Source of the DNA: a virus
Reading direction: 5' to 3' (one strand)
DNA length: 64,000 bases
Virus record (IMG/VR): IMGVR_UViG_3300042561_002100
Coordinates: 1-64,000 of that record
Part shown: one piece after another, positions 30,613 through 55,496 of the stretch
Layout: the number at the start of each line of letters is the position of its first letter
Numbering within the stretch: position 1 is the first letter of the stretch
The notes under the pieces: generated by a model
What the model was told of the DNA's origin: nothing
Databases searched by the model: none
Seen by the model: the letters and a program-made list of their open reading frames with translations, nothing else
Program-made: the position numbers and the translations under genes

Positions 30613-33606
30613 ATGCCAAAAAAAGAAGAGCATTATTTAGGTAATCCCCTATTAAAAAGATCTAATATTGATGTAGAGCTAACTCAGGAACAGTTTATTG
30701 AATTAGCAAAATGTGCTGATGATCCGATTTATTTTGCTAAGAATTATATTAAAATTGTAACTCTTAATGAAGGTCTAGTAAATTTTAAGCCTTATCCTTT
30801 TCAGGAAGAAATGCTTAAAAACTTCTATGAGAAAAGATTTAATATTTGCAAACTGCCCAGGCAAAGCGGAAAATCAACGACTACTGTTGCATTCTTGATT
30901 CATAACATGCTTTTTGATGAGCACACATCTATTGCGATTCTTGCTAACAAAGCCCAGACAGCAAAAGAAATTTTATCAAGACTTCAAACGGCATATGAGA
31001 ATCTTCCAAAATGGATGCAACAGGGTGTTAAATCTTGCAATAAAACTTCAATGGAGCTTGAGAATGGCTCTAAGGTAATTGCCGCATCTACTTCGGCATC
31101 AGCGGTTAGAGGTGGTACTTATTCACTGCTAATGTTGGATGAATATGCATTCGTTCCCGAACAGATTGCTAATAACTTTATGCGATCTGTTTATCCAACG
31201 ATCTCGTCCGGTGATAATTCTAAAGTTATTGTGGTATCTTGTGTCACTAAAGATACTTATCTCTTAACACCTTCGGGATATAGAAAAATTGAGCGCCTAA
31301 TTGACGAAAAGAAAGAAGGTGCTTATTTTACAAATGAATATACCGTGATGGGTAGAGATAAATTCTATTCAAGTAATATAATTGTTAATAACGGAAAATC
31401 AACAACTAATATCATTAAAACTCGTTATGAAGAACTTGAATGCTCCGAAAACCATAAGTTATGGGCACATAAAAATGGTAGATATGATTATTTTAAGAGT
31501 AGTGAATTAGCTGTTGGTGACTATATTGCCTTAAAATATAACACTCAAGTTTTCGGTAATAACGATTATGTTGGATATTACCCCGAAAAGGGTAAAAATA
31601 AAAATCATTTTTCTTGTTCATATATTAACGAGGATATCGCCTATTTCGTTGGTCTTTATATCTCAGAAGGTTATGCTAGAGACCATTATTCAAAGTCTAG
31701 TGGAAATTTAATCGGTGGACAAATAGTAATATCTTGTGGAGACGATATTTCAGAATCACTGAGCAAACTAGGTTTAAAGTTCAGAAAAATTGATGATGTT
31801 CATTACATCATAAATTCAAAAAATTTAGTAGGATTTTTAAAGGAATTAGGTTTTGATGTTACAAAGAAAGCTCCATCTAAAACGATCCCCGATAAAGTAC
31901 TATCATGGTCTAAAAATAACATAACAGCATTACTCAGGGGAATGTTTGATGGTGATGGTGGAATCACAAAGAGAGGCAGAATTCATTATTCCTCAACTTC
32001 TAGAGAATTAATAAGACAAGTTCAACTTTTATTATCTAATTTGGGAATTTTGGGTTCAATTTATAAATCTATAACACCCCCCACAGAGAAAGTAAAAGTT
32101 TATTCTACAGTTTATACTATTGAAATTGAAGGCAGGTTTTCTACAGCTTATAAAGATCAAATAGGATTCGGATTAAAAAGAAAAAAAGACTTATTTTCAT
32201 ACATAAAAATTCCAAGTAGAACTGGACATCCTACAGATGTTGTTCCAGAGTCTGCTTTAACAATAATAAAAAATGGCAACAAAGAAATAGAAAAACTTTA
32301 TCTTATTCCTAAACGGAAAAAGAAGGTTTTTACTACTTTTTCAAGAAGTTTACTATTAGAGCACAAATCTAAAATTTATCCTTTAGCTGATGATAATCTC
32401 AAAGAATTTTTTGATGATAATGTAGACGAGAATCTAATCTGGTTAAAAATTAAAGATACCCAAAAATCAGAAAATGAAGTTTTTGATGTTTCTCTTCCTG
32501 ATGTAAAAGATGATAAATGGTGTCACTCGGTTCTTTATAATAACTTTTTAGGTCATCAGACGCCACAAGGCATGAATCATTTTTATAATCTTTGGATGAG
32601 CGCAAAGAAAGGTAAAAATGGTTACCATCCATTTGAGATCCATTGGTCTGACGTACCGGGAAGAGACGAAAAATGGAAACAACAACAGATTGCTAACACT
32701 AGCGAAAAAGACTTCAACCAAGAATTCAATACTGAATTTTTAGGCTCAACAGAAACTCTTATTTCAGGCCAAAAGCTCGTTAAAATTCACACCTCTGATC
32801 CATTAAGATCAATAAACTCTCTTGATGTTTACGAAGAACCCAAAGAAGATCATGTTTATGTAACATTAGTAGATACTGCCCAAGGAGTAGAAAAAGATTA
32901 TCATGCTTTTGTTATTATTGACATAACAAACAACTCCAACAACAAAGGATTACCCGCATACAACGTAGTAGCAAAATATAAAAATAATGAAATCAAACCT
33001 GAAATTTATTCCAGTGTTGTTAAAGATATAGCTTTTGTTTATAATCAATCATTTTTATTATGCGAAGTTAATGAAACGGGTAGACAAGTAGCGAATGATC
33101 TATTAGAGGATGGTTATCCTAATATGTTACAGTGTTCAACAAAAGCCAGAAGTGGTCAGTTTATTGGTCAAAATTTCTCTGGTAAATATGAACCCGGTGT
33201 TAAGATGCAGAAGAACGTCAAAAAGATTGGCTGCATAAAACTCAAGACTCTTATTGAAGAAAATATCCTGTTCATCAATGATAGAGACATCTTTGCTGAA
33301 TTAACAACCTTCGTTCAAAAAGGTTCAACATTTGAAGCAGAAGCTGGTAAAAATGACGATCTTGTTATGTGTCTAGTGATGTTCTCTTGGCTAACAACCA
33401 ATCAGTATTTCAAAGATCTTGTTGATGATGATTTAAGAAAAAGACTACTACAAGAGAAAAAAGACCAAGAGGAATCTGATATTTTACCTTTTGGTTTTGC
33501 TCCTTATGAAGAAGAAGTGATAGTTGATGAAAAAACCGGAAATGTATGGCAAGTTGTTGAAGAAGATGAAATGAATGCTATGTTAAATCTATTCAATTAC
33601 TATTAA
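30613..33606 (+). CDS. 17: Terminase large subunit gp17 interrupted by an intein
   Basis: A 997-residue precursor: an N-extein of 209, an intein of 440 and a C-extein of 348 residues, giving a 557-residue spliced motor (T4: 610). ATPase features are Walker A LPRQSGKSTT (residues 81-90), Walker B LLMLDEYAF near 173, and coupling motif KVIVVS joined by splicing to TPQGMNHFYNLW. The C-terminal nuclease has the acidic strand VTLVDTAQG and the late NDDLVM. Gp17 pumps and cuts concatemeric DNA at the portal. The intein splits the protein inside the coupling motif, so no active motor can exist before splicing. Confidence 0.95.
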   Translation: MPKKEEHYLGNPLLKRSNIDVELTQEQFIELAKCADDPIYFAKNYIKIVTLNEGLVNFKPYPFQEEMLKNFYEKRFNICKLPRQSGKSTTTVAFLIHNMLFDEHTSIAILANKAQTAKEILSRLQTAYENLPKWMQQGVKSCNKTSMELENGSKVIAASTSASAVRGGTYSLLMLDEYAFVPEQIANNFMRSVYPTISSGDNSKVIVVSCVTKDTYLLTPSGYRKIERLIDEKKEGAYFTNEYTVMGRDKFYSSNIIVNNGKSTTNIIKTRYEELECSENHKLWAHKNGRYDYFKSSELAVGDYIALKYNTQVFGNNDYVGYYPEKGKNKNHFSCSYINEDIAYFVGLYISEGYARDHYSKSSGNLIGGQIVISCGDDISESLSKLGLKFRKIDDVHYIINSKNLVGFLKELGFDVTKKAPSKTIPDKVLSWSKNNITALLRGMFDGDGGITKRGRIHYSSTSRELIRQVQLLLSNLGILGSIYKSITPPTEKVKVYSTVYTIEIEGRFSTAYKDQIGFGLKRKKDLFSYIKIPSRTGHPTDVVPESALTIIKNGNKEIEKLYLIPKRKKKVFTTFSRSLLLEHKSKIYPLADDNLKEFFDDNVDENLIWLKIKDTQKSENEVFDVSLPDVKDDKWCHSVLYNNFLGHQTPQGMNHFYNLWMSAKKGKNGYHPFEIHWSDVPGRDEKWKQQQIANTSEKDFNQEFNTEFLGSTETLISGQKLVKIHTSDPLRSINSLDVYEEPKEDHVYVTLVDTAQGVEKDYHAFVIIDITNNSNNKGLPAYNVVAKYKNNEIKPEIYSSVVKDIAFVYNQSFLLCEVNETGRQVANDLLEDGYPNMLQCSTKARSGQFIGQNFSGKYEPGVKMQKNVKKIGCIKLKTLIEENILFINDRDIFAELTTFVQKGSTFEAEAGKNDDLVMCLVMFSWLTTNQYFKDLVDDDLRKRLLQEKKDQEESDILPFGFAPYEEEVIVDEKTGNVWQVVEEDEMNAMLNLFNYY
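31240..32559 (+). mobile_element. LAGLIDADG intein in gene 17
   Basis: A 440-residue intein. It starts with Cys (CVTKDTYLLTPSGYRKIE, block A), has block B LECSENHKLWAHK, then two homing-endonuclease motifs, YFVGLYISEGY and LLRGMFDGDGG (LAGLIDADG blocks C and E). It ends with VFDVSLPDVKDDKWCHSV and LYNNFLGHQ before Thr+1. The last residue is Gln rather than the usual Asn, a known but uncommon variant. Boundaries are supported by the restored gp17 motif VVS-TPQG. The host-gene insertion point is the ATPase coupling motif, a typical conserved intein site. Confidence 0.92.
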
Positions 33607-46974: not shown

Positions 46975-47396
46975 AGCATAGTGAAATTGAACAAATGTGG
47001 AAACAAGACTCGGTTATTGATCCCGATAATCTTCATCTTGAGTCCATAAAAATTCCACAATTACATGGAAAATATTATGAAATTTTAAACCGAGTTTTTA
47101 TTCTTAAAAAACAAAAAGAATTAGAATACAAAAGACTTTATAAGAATCAATGGTTATATTTCTCAGGTAAAGCCGATCCCGAAGTTTACCAAGAAAAGCC
47201 ATTTCCCCATAAGATTATGAAGCAAGATGTTGGAATTTATATTGAAGCTGATGAGGATCTTAATAAAATCAAAAGCATGTTAGAGTATTATTCACATACG
47301 ATTGATTATCTTAAAGACATTCTTAAGCAGATTCATAATCGCACTTTTCAGATTAGAGATAATATAGAATACAGTAAATTTATCGCAGGTCAATAA
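46971..47396 (+). CDS. uvsY: Recombination mediator UvsY
   Basis: 141 residues (T4: 137), basic and helical, starting MKHSEIEQMWKQDSVIDPDN. The segment IPQLHGKYYEILNRVFILKK and the C-terminal helix TIDYLKDILKQIHNRTFQIR are typical of UvsY. It loads the UvsX recombinase on gp32-coated single-stranded DNA. It overlaps the preceding gene (ATGA) and uvsW (one base). Confidence 0.9.
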   Translation: MKHSEIEQMWKQDSVIDPDNLHLESIKIPQLHGKYYEILNRVFILKKQKELEYKRLYKNQWLYFSGKADPEVYQEKPFPHKIMKQDVGIYIEADEDLNKIKSMLEYYSHTIDYLKDILKQIHNRTFQIRDNIEYSKFIAGQ

Positions 47397-48859
47397 TGGC
47401 TGATGTAACAATTCAAAAGAAAAATGAGATTTACATAAAACTCATATGTGAACCATACGTTCTTTATGAAATGGCACAATACTTCACCTTTGATGTTCCT
47501 GGTGCGAAGTATTCACCTGCATACAAAAAGGGTGGTTGGGATGGTAAGATTTCACTTCTCTCAACGTCTACTGGTGAAATCTATTGTGGTCTTTTGGATA
47601 GAATTATCGCTAAGCTGAAGATTCATGGATTTTCTTATGAATTTAAAGACAATAAGCAATACGGCTTACCCTTTGAGATCAATCCAGAAATAACACTAGA
47701 AGGTGTCACTGGATTCATGAATGTTCTTGGACCAAAAGCCAATCTTATTCCCGATGATTATCAAATTAATGCAGTATATGAATGTCTAAAGTACAACAGA
47801 AAAACAATCGTATCACCCACATCTTCTGGTAAAACATTCCAGATTTTTGGATTGGTTCGCTATTATATGATGAAGAATTATAAGATTCTTATTGTCTTTC
47901 CTCAAACAAGTCTTATTCGGCAAACCTATAAAGAATTTGAAGACTATGGATTAGATTCAGAATCTACTTGTCATATGATCTATCAAGGACAATATAAAAA
48001 ATCAGATAAGCAAGTACATCTTTCAACTTATCAATCCATTTATGATCTAGATAAATCTTTTTTCAACCAATATGATGTTGTTATTGTTGATGAGTGTCAC
48101 AGAACAACATCAAAGAGTCTTATTGGTATTATGAAGAAATGTCCTGACGTGAAGTATCGTTTTGGATTTACTGGAACTCTTAGTAACAACGATGATTCAA
48201 AAGCTCCTAACGAATTAACAATTTCTGGACTTTTTGGACCTTCTTATAGAACCACCAATACCAAAGAACTCATTGAAAAAGGAAGAGTTTCACAATTAGA
48301 TATTCGTTGTGTTGTTCTAAAGCACAAACCACAAAAGTTTGATCGTTATGAAGATGAAGTTCAATATCTTATTAGTAACGAAAAAAGAAACAATTTTATC
48401 TGCGATCTTTCTAGTAAACTCAACAACAACACTCTTGTTATATTCTCCAGAGTTGAGAGTCATGGTCAACTGCTTTATGATATTCTAAAAGAAAATAAGA
48501 ACAAAAAAATCTTCTTTATTCATGGTGGTGTTGAGGTTGAAGAGCGCGAAAGAGTTAGACAGATTTGTGAACAAGAAAATAATGCAATTATTATCGCATC
48601 TTATGGTGTCTTTAGTACCGGAATTAATATTAAGAATTTACACAACATCATATTGGCATCTTCTTCTAAAGGAAAAATTCGGATTCTTCAGACTATCGGT
48701 AGAGGATTAAGAAAACACAAGTCTAAAGATAGAGCAACTCTTTATGATATCGCTGATGATTGTGGAAAAAATTACACTCTTAATCATTTCTTAGAAAGAA
48801 TCAAAATTTATAATGAAGAAGAATTTGATTATGACATTAAGACCATAGAACTCAAGTAA
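47396..48859 (+). CDS. uvsW: Helicase UvsW
   Basis: 487 residues, superfamily 2. Motif I is SPTSSGKT (140-147), preceded by a Q-motif region DDYQINAVYECLKYN. Motif II is VIVDECHR, motif III GFTGTL, and motif VI QTIGRGLRKHKSKDR. It remodels branched DNA and unwinds R-loops, marking the switch from origin- to recombination-dependent replication in T4. Its last 31 bases overlap the convergent LRV gene at 48829. Confidence 0.94.
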   Translation: MADVTIQKKNEIYIKLICEPYVLYEMAQYFTFDVPGAKYSPAYKKGGWDGKISLLSTSTGEIYCGLLDRIIAKLKIHGFSYEFKDNKQYGLPFEINPEITLEGVTGFMNVLGPKANLIPDDYQINAVYECLKYNRKTIVSPTSSGKTFQIFGLVRYYMMKNYKILIVFPQTSLIRQTYKEFEDYGLDSESTCHMIYQGQYKKSDKQVHLSTYQSIYDLDKSFFNQYDVVIVDECHRTTSKSLIGIMKKCPDVKYRFGFTGTLSNNDDSKAPNELTISGLFGPSYRTTNTKELIEKGRVSQLDIRCVVLKHKPQKFDRYEDEVQYLISNEKRNNFICDLSSKLNNNTLVIFSRVESHGQLLYDILKENKNKKIFFIHGGVEVEERERVRQICEQENNAIIIASYGVFSTGINIKNLHNIILASSSKGKIRILQTIGRGLRKHKSKDRATLYDIADDCGKNYTLNHFLERIKIYNEEEFDYDIKTIELK

Positions 48860-49164
48860 TCTTTAATCTTAATATACTTTTTGATGTAGTGTGGAGTGTT
48901 TGGATTATATGCTACACTGCGACGAACAAGACAATGATCATCGGATGCTAGATGTTCTAGAACTTTTGGTGGTGTGTTTGGATTATATGCTACACTGCGA
49001 CGAACAAGACAATGATCATCGGATGCTAGATGTTCTAGAAATTTTGGTGGTGTGTTTGGATTTAGTGCTACCCTATAACGAACCAACCAATCCTCATCGG
49101 TCGCTAGTTGTTCTAGAGTTTTTGGTGAAGTGTTTGGATTACTGGCTTGTTCAAGTTTGTTCAT
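48829..49164 (-). CDS. LRV-type repeat protein A
   Basis: 111 residues from ATG at 49164 (a TTG at 49170 is less likely). The start MNKLEQASNPNT leads into three full 26-residue repeats of the form NPNTPPKxLExLAxDDxxxVRxxVAx, with a C-terminal cap NPNTPHYIKKYIKIKDYL. Repeats 2 and 3 are nearly identical even at the DNA level (78-base period). The unit matches the leucine-rich repeat variant (LRV) family, an all-helical HEAT-like solenoid used for binding. The partner is unknown. The end overlaps uvsW on the other strand by 31 bases. Confidence 0.85.
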   Translation of the reverse strand: MNKLEQASNPNTSPKTLEQLATDEDWLVRYRVALNPNTPPKFLEHLASDDHCLVRRSVAYNPNTPPKVLEHLASDDHCLVRRSVAYNPNTPHYIKKYIKIKDYLSSMVLMS

Positions 49165-49166
49165 AA

Positions 49167-49322
49167 TCAATTCTCATCTTTTGTATAAACTTGTTCACAT
49201 TCACCTCTCCTCTTACATACAATAATAACTCTAGTTGTTGAAAATAATTCAAGATTTTTATTCAGACAAGATAAATTTTTACCAGAATTACAAATCATAA
49301 TCGTTGTTATGAAATCAAGCAT
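49167..49322 (-). CDS. Small cysteine-containing protein
   Basis: A 51-residue frame, MLDFITTIMICNSGKNLSCL at the start and VIIVCKRRGECEQVYTKDEN at the end. AGGA lies 8 bases before ATG, and its stop is two bases before the start of LRV gene A, as for coupled genes in this operon. Four cysteines. No family recognised. The frame fills an otherwise empty 200-base gap. Confidence 0.5.
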   Translation of the reverse strand: MLDFITTIMICNSGKNLSCLNKNLELFSTTRVIIVCKRRGECEQVYTKDEN

Positions 49323-49369
49323 TTAAGGTTCCTAATATAATTGCGTTGTTTATTATTATGAAAGAATTG

Positions 49370-49936
49370 TTATGTTTTATCTAACTTAGCTAGTTGTTCT
49401 TGAATTTTAATATACTTTTTGATGTAGTGTGGTGTGTTTGGATTTTGTGCTACTCCACAACGAACATCAGAATTCTTATTGGTCGCTAGTTGTTCTAGTG
49501 CTTTTGGTGGTGTGTTTGGATTACATGCTACCCAATAACGAATAGAATAATCATCATCAGTCGCTAGTTGTTCTAGGGCTTTTGGTGGTGTGTTTGGGTT
49601 TTGTGCTAACGCCACACAAATATAATACCTATCATTGGTCACAAAACTCTTTATTGTCGTTGGTTGGGTATCTGAAATTTTTAATGCTTGCCAACAAATT
49701 TTCCAGCCCTCATCTGCCATTAGAAGTTCTAATGTTTCAGGTGAAGTGTTTGGATTTCTTGCTACTCCACAACGAACCCAATACTCTTCATCAGTAGCTA
49801 GACGCTCTAGCTCTTCTCGTGGTGTGTTTGGATTACATGCTACCCAATAACGAATAGAATAATCATCATCAGTCGCTAGTTTTTCTAGAGTTTTTGGTGA
49901 AGTGTTTGGATTACTGGCTTGTTCAAGTTTGTTCAT
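49370..49936 (-). CDS. LRV-type repeat protein B
   Basis: 188 residues with six 26-residue LRV units and the cap NPNTPHYIKKYIKIQEQL. The fourth unit is degenerate (ISDTQPTTIKSFVTNDRYY) and has lost the NPNT signature; the others are regular. A stretch of about 50 bases at 49518-49568 is repeated at 49830-49880 within the gene, showing internal duplication. The start ATG overlaps the stop of protein C (ATGA). It is probably a helical-solenoid binding protein. Confidence 0.85.
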   Translation of the reverse strand: MNKLEQASNPNTSPKTLEKLATDDDYSIRYWVACNPNTPREELERLATDEEYWVRCGVARNPNTSPETLELLMADEGWKICWQALKISDTQPTTIKSFVTNDRYYICVALAQNPNTPPKALEQLATDDDYSIRYWVACNPNTPPKALEQLATNKNSDVRCGVAQNPNTPHYIKKYIKIQEQLAKLDKT

Positions 49937-50412
49937 AATCTAGCTAATTGGTCTTGAATTTTAAGATACTTTTTGATGTAGTGTGGTGTGTTTGGATTTC
50001 TTGCTACACATTCACGAACCTCAGAACTCTTATCGGTCGCTAGGAGTTCTAGTGTTTTTGGATGTGTATTTGGATTTCGTGCTACCCGATAATAAACATA
50101 AAAACATTCATCGGTCGCTAAAAGTTCTAGAGTTTCTGGTGGTGTGTTTTGATTATATGCTACATTATAACGAACACCAGAATTCTCATCGGTTGCCAGT
50201 TGTTCTAGGATTTCTAGTGGAGTGTTTAGATTTTCTGCTACAACAATACGGACACGATAATCCTCATCGGTTGCTAGTTGTACTAAAATTTTTTGTGGTG
50301 TGTTTGGGTTATGTGCTACACAACAACGAACACCAGATTCCTCATCGGTTGCCAGAATTTCTATTACATTTGGTGGTGTATTTGGATCTCTAGCTTGTTC
50401 AAGTTTGTTCAT
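49933..50412 (-). CDS. LRV-type repeat protein C
   Basis: 159 residues with five LRV units and the cap NPNTPHYIKKYLKIQDQL. The start is MNKLEQARDPNTPPNVIEIL. The residues that vary between units (after ATDE and around VRxxVA) are concentrated at positions expected on one face of the solenoid. ATGA overlaps join it to proteins D and B. Confidence 0.85.
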   Translation of the reverse strand: MNKLEQARDPNTPPNVIEILATDEESGVRCCVAHNPNTPQKILVQLATDEDYRVRIVVAENLNTPLEILEQLATDENSGVRYNVAYNQNTPPETLELLATDECFYVYYRVARNPNTHPKTLELLATDKSSEVRECVARNPNTPHYIKKYLKIQDQLARL

Positions 50413-50759
50413 AACGTCGCCAGATGTTCTTGAATTTTAATATACTTTTTGATGTAGTGTGGTGTGTTTGGATTTAGTGCTACCCTATAACGAACAACAG
50501 AATTCTCATCGGTCGCTAGTTGTTCTAGGGCTTTTGGTGGTGTGTTTGGATGTATTGCTACACAATAACGAACACTAGAATCCTCATCGGTCGCTAGTTG
50601 TTCTAGGGCTTTTGGTGGTGTGTTTGGATTATGTGCTACCAAATAACGAACATTAGGATCCCCATTGGTGACTAAAAGTTCTAATAGTTTCGCCTGAGTA
50701 TTTTGATTCCATATAGTATTTGGATCCAAAATAAAGTCAATAAAATTCACATTAGACAT
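50409..50759 (-). CDS. LRV-type repeat protein D
   Basis: 116 residues. The N-terminus MSNVNFIDFILDPNTIWNQN differs from the MNKLEQ starts of its neighbours. Three LRV units follow, then the cap NPNTPHYIKKYIKIQEHL. It overlaps the upstream gene by eight bases and the downstream one by ATGA. A 37-base stretch is identical at 50513 and 50591, and also in gene B at 49561. Confidence 0.83.
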   Translation of the reverse strand: MSNVNFIDFILDPNTIWNQNTQAKLLELLVTNGDPNVRYLVAHNPNTPPKALEQLATDEDSSVRYCVAIHPNTPPKALEQLATDENSVVRYRVALNPNTPHYIKKYIKIQEHLATL

Positions 50760-50955
50760 AATAAATTTTTCTCTTTGGTTGTTCTTTTCTTTTTACAATA
50801 AACTTATTAGCAGAATCAAAGGAATCAAAACATATTTCAACAGGAAAAACTTCTGCTTTGATAAAAGGCATCCAAAAAAGAAGTAACTTTCGCTGTTGTG
50901 GATAAAATTTAATGTTTCCGTTTAAATCAGTTTTTTCAACAATACGGTAGATCAT
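50752..50955 (-). CDS. Small unknown protein
   Basis: 67 residues from ATG at 50955 (MIYRIVEKTDLNGNIKFYPQ); a TTG at 50970 is the alternative. It is basic and beta-rich, ending QPKRKIYYV. The pattern of a modified YRIVEK-x-D-x-N-G strand followed by FDSFDSANKFIVKR looks like a small single-domain protein. No family recognised. Part of the minus-strand accessory operon. Confidence 0.6.
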   Translation of the reverse strand: MIYRIVEKTDLNGNIKFYPQQRKLLLFWMPFIKAEVFPVEICFDSFDSANKFIVKRKEQPKRKIYYV

Positions 50956-50963
50956 TTTAGTAA

Positions 50964-51581
50964 TTAACAAAAAGAAGTAATAACAACATTAACGTGAGAA
51001 GTAGTTCTTTTAATTTTATTGATGATTTTCTTCCACCAAGATTGACGATATCTTGAAATCATTTGGCTAAAATAACCACCTTGCGAGGTACTAATGATAA
51101 CAAGATATTCTGTTGTTGGTAATATAGTCTCTAGAAGTTTCTGTGAAATCGTATCATCTTCATCTACAATAACAACATCAAACCTATTATAACGATAACT
51201 ATTGATTGATGAACAATTAAAAACGTTAACATTTTTAGATTTAATGAAAGGTTTAATGTCATTTAATCTGGAATAGTTTGAGAAAAATACACCAACTTTC
51301 TTGTTACATAGTAAACCTAGATAATTGGCTAGATTAATAGTGAAGAAGGTTTTTCCAGATCGTCTAAATGTAGCAATTAATGTAATAGGACTTTTGAAAC
51401 AAGAACGAAACCACTTTCTTTGATAACGTTTTAATCCTTTAGTCTCCACAAAAGAAGGATAGATTCTTGTTCCTTTAATGAAACAATTAAACTTTTCTAG
51501 TTCATTAGAGGGATTCTGAAACAACATGTTAGATGTTCTGACAGATTTTAATAACTTATTTAACGAGTTCTTGATATTCAA
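50964..51581 (-). CDS. Orphan terminase-like ATPase without nuclease domain
   Basis: 205 residues from a TTG that overlaps the upstream TGA. It has a Q-motif-like GLKRYQRKWF (49-58), Walker A ATFRRSGKTFFT (70-81), Walker B FDVVIVDEDD (134-143) and a coupling motif YLVIISTSQGG (159-169). The order and spacing are those of the ATPase domain of phage terminase large subunits; in gp17 of this window the matching parts are LPRQSGKSTT, LLMLDEYAF and VIVVS-TPQG. The nuclease domain is absent, and the protein ends about 35 residues after the coupling motif. A degenerate terminase copy, a packaging modulator or a helicase-like enzyme are all possible. Confidence 0.65.
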   Translation of the reverse strand: MNIKNSLNKLLKSVRTSNMLFQNPSNELEKFNCFIKGTRIYPSFVETKGLKRYQRKWFRSCFKSPITLIATFRRSGKTFFTINLANYLGLLCNKKVGVFFSNYSRLNDIKPFIKSKNVNVFNCSSINSYRYNRFDVVIVDEDDTISQKLLETILPTTEYLVIISTSQGGYFSQMISRYRQSWWKKIINKIKRTTSHVNVVITSFC

Positions 51582-51799
51582 AACTTTTCTTCTCTTGTTA
51601 ATGTTGATTGATGATTTAAATGTATTTGATAGTTTAATCGTCTATAACGCTTACTAAAAACATCTGGTAACCAATAAGTTTCTAGATATTCTACTTTTAC
51701 ATTTTGAAGAAAGAAATCTAGATCATGAAAAATACCTAATTGACAATAACCATCGTGAGTGATAAAGTTATTGTCGTCAAGTCTATAGTAATAAAGCAT
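51578..51799 (-). CDS. Small unknown protein, first of the minus-strand accessory operon
   Basis: 73 residues from ATG at 51799 (MLYYYRLDDNNFITHDGYCQ); a TTG at 51829 would add ten residues. It is aromatic-rich, with LGIFHDLDFFLQNVKVEYLE and a basic end. No recognised family. Its stop overlaps the TTG start of the ATPase-like gene. Confidence 0.55.
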   Translation of the reverse strand: MLYYYRLDDNNFITHDGYCQLGIFHDLDFFLQNVKVEYLETYWLPDVFSKRYRRLNYQIHLNHQSTLTREEKF

Positions 51800-51828
51800 T
51801 ATTGTATTTGACGAACGATAGTGAGTCA

Positions 51829-51843
51829 ATTCCCGAAGGGAAT
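51829..51843. repeat. Hairpin, left copy of an inverted pair
   Basis: ATTCCC-GAA-GGGAAT. The exact reverse complement is at 52257-52271, on the other side of the gene at 51877. It lies between two divergent starts, so it may be a regulatory or transcription-boundary element. Confidence 0.8.
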
Positions 51844-51876
51844 GATTAAATAATATTAGAAGTGTTAAGAAATATA

Positions 51877-52257
51877 ATGCAAGAGGAATTTTATGCGGTT
51901 GTTAAGTTAGTAAGTGGTGAAGAAATTTTTGGTATAGTATCCCCAATGGAGGAACAGGGTGAACAGTATTTGATTCTTTTAGATCCCATTAGTATCACTA
52001 GAGAAGAGTTGAATAACGTTTACATTTACAGAATAGAACCATGGATGAAGCTAACACAAGAAACGATTTTCATCTTAGAAAAGTCAAAAATAATTACGGT
52101 AGTAGAATCATTTGACGATGAGCTAATAAAGCTTTACAAACGTTATTTGAACAAAAGTGACTCTAGTGGAACCTATGTACTCAATAGATCTGAAGGATTC
52201 ATCAATAACGTTAAACGAGCTAGAATGATACTAGAGAAGATCTACAGAATCAATTAA
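51877..52257 (+). CDS. Small beta-rich protein, Sm/LSm-like by pattern
   Basis: 126 residues from ATG at 51877 (a GTG at 51862 is less likely). The core FYAVVKLVSGEEIFGIVSPM followed by LILLDPISITREE has the strand-GEEI-G-strand look of an Sm-like barrel. The end VESFDDELIKLYKRYL is shared in form with the proteins at 62718 and 63010, so the three may be paralogues. An RNA-binding role is only a guess from the fold pattern. It is a single plus-strand gene between inverted hairpins. Confidence 0.6.
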   Translation: MQEEFYAVVKLVSGEEIFGIVSPMEEQGEQYLILLDPISITREELNNVYIYRIEPWMKLTQETIFILEKSKIITVVESFDDELIKLYKRYLNKSDSSGTYVLNRSEGFINNVKRARMILEKIYRIN

Positions 52258-52271
52258 TTCCCTTCGGGAAT
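52257..52271. repeat. Hairpin, right copy of an inverted pair
   Basis: ATTCCC-TTC-GGGAAT, reverse complement of 51829-51843. It begins at the last base of the stop codon of the gene at 51877. There is no T-run, so simple termination is not obvious. Confidence 0.8.
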
Positions 52272-54323: not shown

Positions 54324-55496
54324 ATGAAAATTAATTTACTAAATGGTGATTCTTTATTAATACTTAAAGAATTTGATGATAATAGTATTGATTCCATTGT
54401 TTGCGATCCTCCATATGGATTGAGTTTTATGGGAAAAAAATGGGATTATGATGTTCCTTGTGTGGAGTTATGGGCAGAATGTCTACGAGTGTTGAAACCG
54501 GGTGGACATCTTTTGGCATTTGCTGGCACACGGACACAGCATAGAATGGCATGTAGAATTGAAGATGCTGGCTTTGAGATCCGGGATATGATTGCCTGGG
54601 TCTACGGGTCGGGGTTCCCGAAGTCGCTGGATGTGAGCAAGGCGATTGATAAAGCTGCGGGCGCGGAGCGGGAGGTGGTGGGGCAACAGCATCGCCCCGA
54701 AGGAAGGCAGTTTGCGGAGGGTGCCAGCGGCTTCGCGCGTGGGGCCGTTGACATCACCGCCCCCGCCACCCCCGAAGCCCAGCAGTGGTCCGGCTGGGGC
54801 ACAGCTCTAAAACCAGCACTTGAACCAATTACTATGGCTCGTAAACCATTAGAAGGAACTGTTGCTTCTAATGTGCTGGAGCACGGCACCGGGGCGCTGA
54901 ATGTGGATGGGTGCAGAGTGGCACATAATGAGGATTGTCGGATCATGGCTCCAAGTCAATCCAACATTGACAATCCAAGTGAAAAACTTCGGCAGGGTGG
55001 TAGAAGAGAAGAAACCCTGGAACTGAAACCCTCCGGCCGCTGGCCCGCCAACCTGATCACGGATGGCAGTGACGAGGTGGTGGGGTTATTTCCAGATAGG
55101 AAAACAACATGGGTTTCCCCCAAACATAAAAATAATCGTAGTGGTGAATTTCTTGGAGAATTAAAACATCCTGGAGCACAGGGTTTCAATGACTCAGGTT
55201 CGGCTGCCCGTTTCTTTTATTGTGCTAAAACAAGCAAGAAAGAACGTGGTAACGGAAATAACCATCCAACAGTTAAACCTATTGCGCTCATGCGCTATCT
55301 TTGTCGTCTAGTCACACCTCCTGGTGGCACAGTTCTTGATCCATTTATGGGCAGCGGTTCTACAGGAATCGCGGCACTTCAAGAAAATTTTAATTTTATT
55401 GGTATAGAGTTGGATGAAAATTATTATAATATAGCAAAAGATCGCATAGACGTAGTTAAAAATAAACCAACATTAGATGTATTATTTGACCTATGA
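54324..55496 (+). CDS. DNA methyltransferase, beta-class order (N6-adenine or N4-cytosine)
   Basis: 390 residues. Catalytic motif IV CDPPYG is at residues 27-32, and SAM-binding motif I LDPFMGSGSTG at 338-348, after HPTVKPIALMRYL. The order IV to I marks beta-class amino-methyltransferases. The region between, about 90-290, is the likely target-recognition part. No restriction partner is adjacent, so it probably protects phage DNA or alters regulation. Composition is patchy: 54591-54806, 54880-54920 and 55020-55085 are strikingly GC-rich inside an AT-rich genome, implying foreign origin. It is inserted between genes 47 and 46 and overlaps gene 46 (ATGA). Confidence 0.9.
   Translation: MKINLLNGDSLLILKEFDDNSIDSIVCDPPYGLSFMGKKWDYDVPCVELWAECLRVLKPGGHLLAFAGTRTQHRMACRIEDAGFEIRDMIAWVYGSGFPKSLDVSKAIDKAAGAEREVVGQQHRPEGRQFAEGASGFARGAVDITAPATPEAQQWSGWGTALKPALEPITMARKPLEGTVASNVLEHGTGALNVDGCRVAHNEDCRIMAPSQSNIDNPSEKLRQGGRREETLELKPSGRWPANLITDGSDEVVGLFPDRKTTWVSPKHKNNRSGEFLGELKHPGAQGFNDSGSAARFFYCAKTSKKERGNGNNHPTVKPIALMRYLCRLVTPPGGTVLDPFMGSGSTGIAALQENFNFIGIELDENYYNIAKDRIDVVKNKPTLDVLFDL

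Follow-up and report, generated by a model that had tools for sequence, protein, structure and literature searches.

A putative single-core RecA-like ATPase gene, with similarity to both terminases and helicases, in an accessory cassette of a marine T4-like virus

The window, the stretch of DNA analyzed here, is the first 64 kb of the 179,526-bp record of a marine T4-like virus. On its minus strand, at the position given by an earlier note on this sequence (50964–51581), there is an open reading frame of 205 amino acids with P-loop ATPase motifs, referred to here as the ATPase ORF. It is part of a minus-strand cassette with the gene order 83-aa gene, ATPase ORF, 72-aa gene, and four leucine-rich-repeat-variant (LRV) genes, and it is flanked by plus-strand genes: uvsW (47396–48859) at one end, and at the other a 131-aa ORF followed by gp55, gp47, and gp46. 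In the related phage L018, whose gp47 is 82% identical, the 83-aa and 72-aa genes are present but the ATPase ORF is replaced by LRV genes and a 71-aa ORF; it is therefore an accessory gene, in agreement with its earlier assignment to an accessory operon. The features of the cassette are as follows, with the corresponding motifs of a relative, L015, where these differ.

48829–50759, minus strand: four tandem LRV protein genes at the end of the cassette; three of the four match Pfam LRV (E 2e-14 to 4e-36)
50752–50970, minus strand: downstream cassette gene, 72 aa, with a probable ATG start at 50955 and without a known family
50964–51581, minus strand: P-loop ATPase ORF; the TTG start shares bases with the upstream stop codon (TTGA), and the stop codon is at 50964–50966
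51075–51101, minus strand: motif III-like VIISTSQGG, residues 161–169 (VIIGTPKGG in L015)
51153–51176, minus strand: Walker B and catalytic Glu, VVIVDEDD, residues 136–143
51348–51368, minus strand: Walker A, FRRSGKT, residues 72–78 (FKRSGKT in L015)
51420–51422, minus strand: Gln54, similar to a Q (adenine) motif and invariant among the aligned cores of TerL and UvsW
51578–51829, minus strand: upstream cassette gene, 83 aa from a TTG or 72 aa from an ATG at 51796; phrog_3615/phrog_1134 family, present in cyanophages
51801–51829, minus strand: candidate sigma-70-like promoter before the cassette, TTGACT-17-TACAAT, partly kept in L015 and L018

The LRV genes are built from the unit NPNTPPxxLExLATDxxxxVR, and gene number and repeat order vary between close relatives, with four genes in the window (48829–50759, minus) and three in L015 (6134–7744); these differences suggest repeat shuffling. 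A perfect hairpin, ATTCCC(GAA/TTC)GGGAAT, is present in two copies (51829–51843 and 52257–52271; 0.01 expected by chance) that bracket the 131-aa ORF (51862–52257), and the first of these also precedes the cassette in L015 and L018. Between gp47 and gp46 there is a DNA methyltransferase-like gene (54324–55496, plus), which is probably a recent import because its middle part is 57% GC, compared with 34% for the window.

CTAAATA or NTAAATA(A/G), found 24–41 nt before plus-strand genes, is likely to serve as this phage's late promoter motif (examples on the plus strand of the window are at 2092, 15854, 33620, 40766, 41363, 42060, and 52472), and the T4 consensus TATAAATA has no occurrences in the 64 kb versus 9.7 expected from shuffles. 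A similar site, TTAAATA, is located within the ATPase ORF (51557–51563, minus) about 35 nt before the Met19 codon, a spacing like that of the late genes, and may represent either an internal late start or a chance occurrence. Sigma-70-like sites are as numerous in the region as expected by chance, and neither the candidate before the cassette nor the internal TAAATA site is decisive as to the timing of expression.

The ATPase ORF has identical copies in two other IMG/VR contigs, while a further two carry a copy with 90% identity. No further relatives were found by tblastn in 50,697 phage records and 72,556 plasmids (nothing below E 2), in 84,980 prokaryote genomes, or in 27 related virus records beyond the two already known, and a PDB sequence search gave no match. 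The window and L015 copies differ by 14.5 synonymous and 22.5 non-synonymous changes (15/5/17 differences at the three codon positions), and the dN/dS of 0.43 is below 1 (Fisher p ~0.02). By this comparison the frame is under purifying selection, but weakly so relative to gp47 (0.04) and UvsW (0.07). Because the 90% relative keeps the frame at this ratio, and because several ATPase profiles match it, the ATPase ORF is, as judged from its sequence, a real gene beyond what chance would provide. We note that it is a rare small ATPase of which two known alleles differ in the coupling motif; the differences include R73K, S164G, S166P, and Q167K, in the Walker A arginine and motif III, with GKT and DE intact in both.

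The ASCE P-loop ATPase motif set is almost complete. RRSGKT (residues 73–78), VVIVDEDD, and VIISTSQGG are all present in the order previously described as that of the gp17 ATPase domain, but the spacing does not correspond to that of gp17: the G of GKT in Walker A and the D of DE in Walker B are 64 residues apart, versus 90 in both the phage's own gp17 and T4 gp17, and 88 in a second TerL ATPase paralogue of 320 aa encoded by the same virus. The ENGS segment or NGS-x-I hairpin that lies between the Walker motifs of TerL is absent in the alignment with TerL cores. An arginine at position −3 of Walker A is found in the ATPase ORF, gp17, T4, and T7 (lysine in L015), and the (S/T)TPxG segment of motif III is STSQG in the window copy and GTPKG in L015. 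The Walker A arginine and TPKG are hallmarks of TerL, although the arginine is also found in TmcA.

The first-RecA-core motifs of SF1/SF2 helicases (Q motif, Walker A, DExx, and motif III) are likewise present. Motif III is common to TerL and helicases (PMC9958956), and therefore cannot alone separate the two. The ATPase ORF ends after the first core, with the C-terminus some 36 residues past motif III following one further helix-strand unit, and the second RecA core with motifs IV–VI is absent. The gp17 ATPase is composed of subdomain I, containing the ATP site, and subdomain II, responsible for transmission (PMC9958956); subdomain II is absent from the ATPase ORF, as is the C-terminal RNase H-like nuclease, whose absence had been correctly noted before.

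A PHROGs profile search with the ATPase ORF matches TerL families only, phrog_2 at 30 bits (5.3e-7, residues 50–179) and phrog_7579 at 5e-4. The phrog_2 match is not TerL-specific, because the phage's own PhoH (37.6 bits, 2.3e-9), RecD (26.4 bits, 5.5e-6), UvsW (17.8 bits, 0.002), and TmcA (16.5 bits, 0.006) match it too, and a gp17-family HMM built from 60 gp17 homologues scores the ATPase ORF at −0.6 bits versus 156 bits for the 320-aa paralogue. The search of TerL profiles that had been proposed as a check thus returns a match, but one to a cross-reactive family. This cross-reaction (E 2e-9 to 6e-3) is a trap when orphan terminases are named from single matches, and the ATPase ORF illustrates generic RecA-core similarity that is easily misread as terminase.

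The 320-aa paralogue, encoded outside the window at 69,398–70,360 (plus) of the record, is a genuine orphan TerL ATPase. It matches phrog_5989 at 8e-40, is related to gp17s by tblastn at ~1e-35 with ~30% identity (aligned to gp17 22–269), and contains the whole TerL ATPase domain with the nuclease absent. The gene, also located at L007:1267–2229, belongs to the replication gene cluster, with MazG (after gp41) and a 337-aa ORF as its neighbours, and only two identical copies were found among viral contigs. The label of orphan TerL ATPase truly fits this gene and not the ATPase ORF, and the nuclease-less paralogue is the better object for the question of packaging regulation. Descent of the ATPase ORF from the paralogue was considered and rejected (pairwise Z 0.4–1.6). 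The phage's own gp17 gene (30613–33606, plus) is split by an intein-like insert of ~438 residues with endonuclease-like motifs, positioned between VIVVS and TPQG, within ATPase motif III.

Profiles of helicase type also match. The PADLOC Nhi profile scores the ATPase ORF at 31 bits (2.6e-8) and L015 at 28 bits, and the AbiO profile scores them both at 27 bits (4e-7 for the ATPase ORF); the Nhi/AbiO scores are 33/33 bits for PhoH and 35/31 bits for T4 Dda, and none of five TerLs (T7, lambda, P22, the phage's own gp17, and the 320-aa paralogue) gives a match. Since PhoH and Dda match equally, membership of the ATPase ORF in these defence families was rejected as an SF1-core effect. The best Pfam match is to the NAT10/TmcA helicase domain PF05127 (15.4 bits, E 0.017), below the gathering cut-off of 22.7, and the PhoH profiles PF02562 and phrog_170 do not match; the phage's true PhoH is encoded at ~121.6 kb of the record. 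Pairwise scores are all weak (UvsW, Z 4.2, not above the best shuffle; T4 gp17, Z 2.6; TmcA, Z 2.0), and hhalign comparison of a two-row ATPase ORF profile with gp17, UvsW, PhoH, gp41, and gp46 gave no usable probability. The earlier note held that a best match to helicases or other ASCE ATPases with no TerL signal would count against a terminase affiliation; helicase-type profiles do match, yet the TerL-like phrog_2 signal remains.

AF2 modeling of the ATPase ORF from two sequences gave a pLDDT of 44, and the Foldseek matches of that model were discarded as evidence. With a mixed alignment including TerL and UvsW cores, AF2 predicts a RecA-like core at residues 61–165 (pLDDT ~70–87) with the RecA order of elements, in a model of medium confidence that is biased by the TerL and UvsW rows supplied and has no TmcA row. 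Among the PDB matches listed for this model are Dna2, DSH9, ISWI, and NAT10/TmcA, then T4 gp17 and P74-26 TerL, and the highest TM among those listed is for 2zpa (TmcA; TMq 0.52, rmsd 3.4); in BFVD, PhoH, helicases, and terminases are mixed, with terminases at TMq up to 0.53. The fold search supports a RecA core without pointing to TerL in particular: terminases are among the structural matches, in the company of helicases, TmcA/NAT10, and PhoH.

The ATPase ORF thus encodes an ASCE RecA-core ATPase with a TerL-like signal, and its designation as an orphan terminase-like ATPase is partly supported, by the phrog_2 and phrog_7579 matches, the Walker A arginine, and TPKG in L015, but not by the gp17 HMM, the spacing, or the missing TerL elements. 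The product is probably a minimal single-core RecA-like (ASCE) NTPase of the SF1/SF2-PhoH-TmcA-TerL group that acts as an oligomer or with a partner and not as a packaging motor. Its motif set suggests that it would bind and hydrolyse ATP. Because its one core lacks the second RecA domain of a monomeric helicase, and also TerL's nuclease and transmission domain, an oligomer or partner would be required; PhoH is thought to work as an oligomer, and by analogy the lone core would do so too, or would act on a partner, perhaps another cassette product. The 83-aa, 72-aa, and LRV cassette proteins would be the first candidate partners, and the role we propose is that of an accessory nucleic-acid- or protein-remodelling NTPase, most likely outside the packaging motor.

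The phrog_2 (5e-7 over residues 50–179) and phrog_7579 matches, the arginine shared with gp17, T4, and T7, the TPKG motif III of L015, and the BFVD terminases among the structural matches could also be accounted for by derivation from a packaging motor: the product would be a miniaturised and degenerate ATPase subdomain I of TerL that modulates or poisons packaging, the phage's own or a rival's. We consider this unlikely, given the spacing of 64 rather than 88–90, the missing NGS hairpin, subdomain II, and nuclease, the −0.6 bits with the gp17 profile and the distance from gp17, together with helicase-type profiles that match the ATPase ORF and not TerLs, and the unspecific nature of phrog_2. 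There is a slim chance that a TerL-derived minimal core, in a genome already encoding a second, full-length TerL ATPase paralogue, engages TerS, TerL, or portal, either to regulate packaging or to poison the motor of a co-infecting phage; were a packaging role true, the ATPase ORF would provide a natural means of regulating a viral motor.

Nor is it likely that the gene is a decayed or inactive helicase RecA1 remnant that either persists as a binding protein without enzymatic activity or is in the course of being lost. The single core, the variation of motif III and the Walker A arginine between the two alleles, a dN/dS far above those of gp47 and UvsW, and the absence of the gene from the L018 cassette are consistent with decay, but both alleles retain GKT and DE, the frame is kept, and the dN/dS is below 1. 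An ATPase of the Nhi/AbiO helicase kind serving defence or counter-defence, as might be proposed from these being the top PADLOC matches and from the variable accessory cassette with LRV repeat genes, is very improbable, since models that match PhoH and Dda equally report the SF1 core only and the ATPase ORF has neither a nuclease nor a second core.

A minimal single-core NTPase can be compared with four known systems. The phage's own UvsW (SF2) gives the top pairwise score, with ~28% identity over 84 residues around the Q motif and Walker A, but the score does not exceed the best shuffle, and the ATPase ORF has no C-terminal RecA domain and no UvsW profile match. The TerL ATPase domain (T4 gp17, PHROG 2, PF03237) presents its motifs in the same succession (Q motif, Walker A with its −3 Arg, DE, motif III), and L015 shares TPKG with it, but differs in its Walker spacing and in its NGS hairpin, subdomain II, and nuclease. 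The TmcA/NAT10 ATPase domain (PF05127) is similar in its short Walker A–B spacing (58), the Arg at −3, and LL...TT/ST-x-QG after DE, although the ATPase ORF is without the acetyltransferase domain, and the pairwise Z is just 2.0 and the Pfam score below the cut-off. PhoH and the SF1B helicases (Dda, RecD, Nhi, AbiO) differ in a spacing of 78–103 in those measured, in the second core that the ATPase ORF is without, and in the lack of a PhoH or Dda profile match, but they share the equal response to the Nhi and AbiO profiles and a short helix leading from DE to the motif III strand; PhoH, too, consists of one RecA core.
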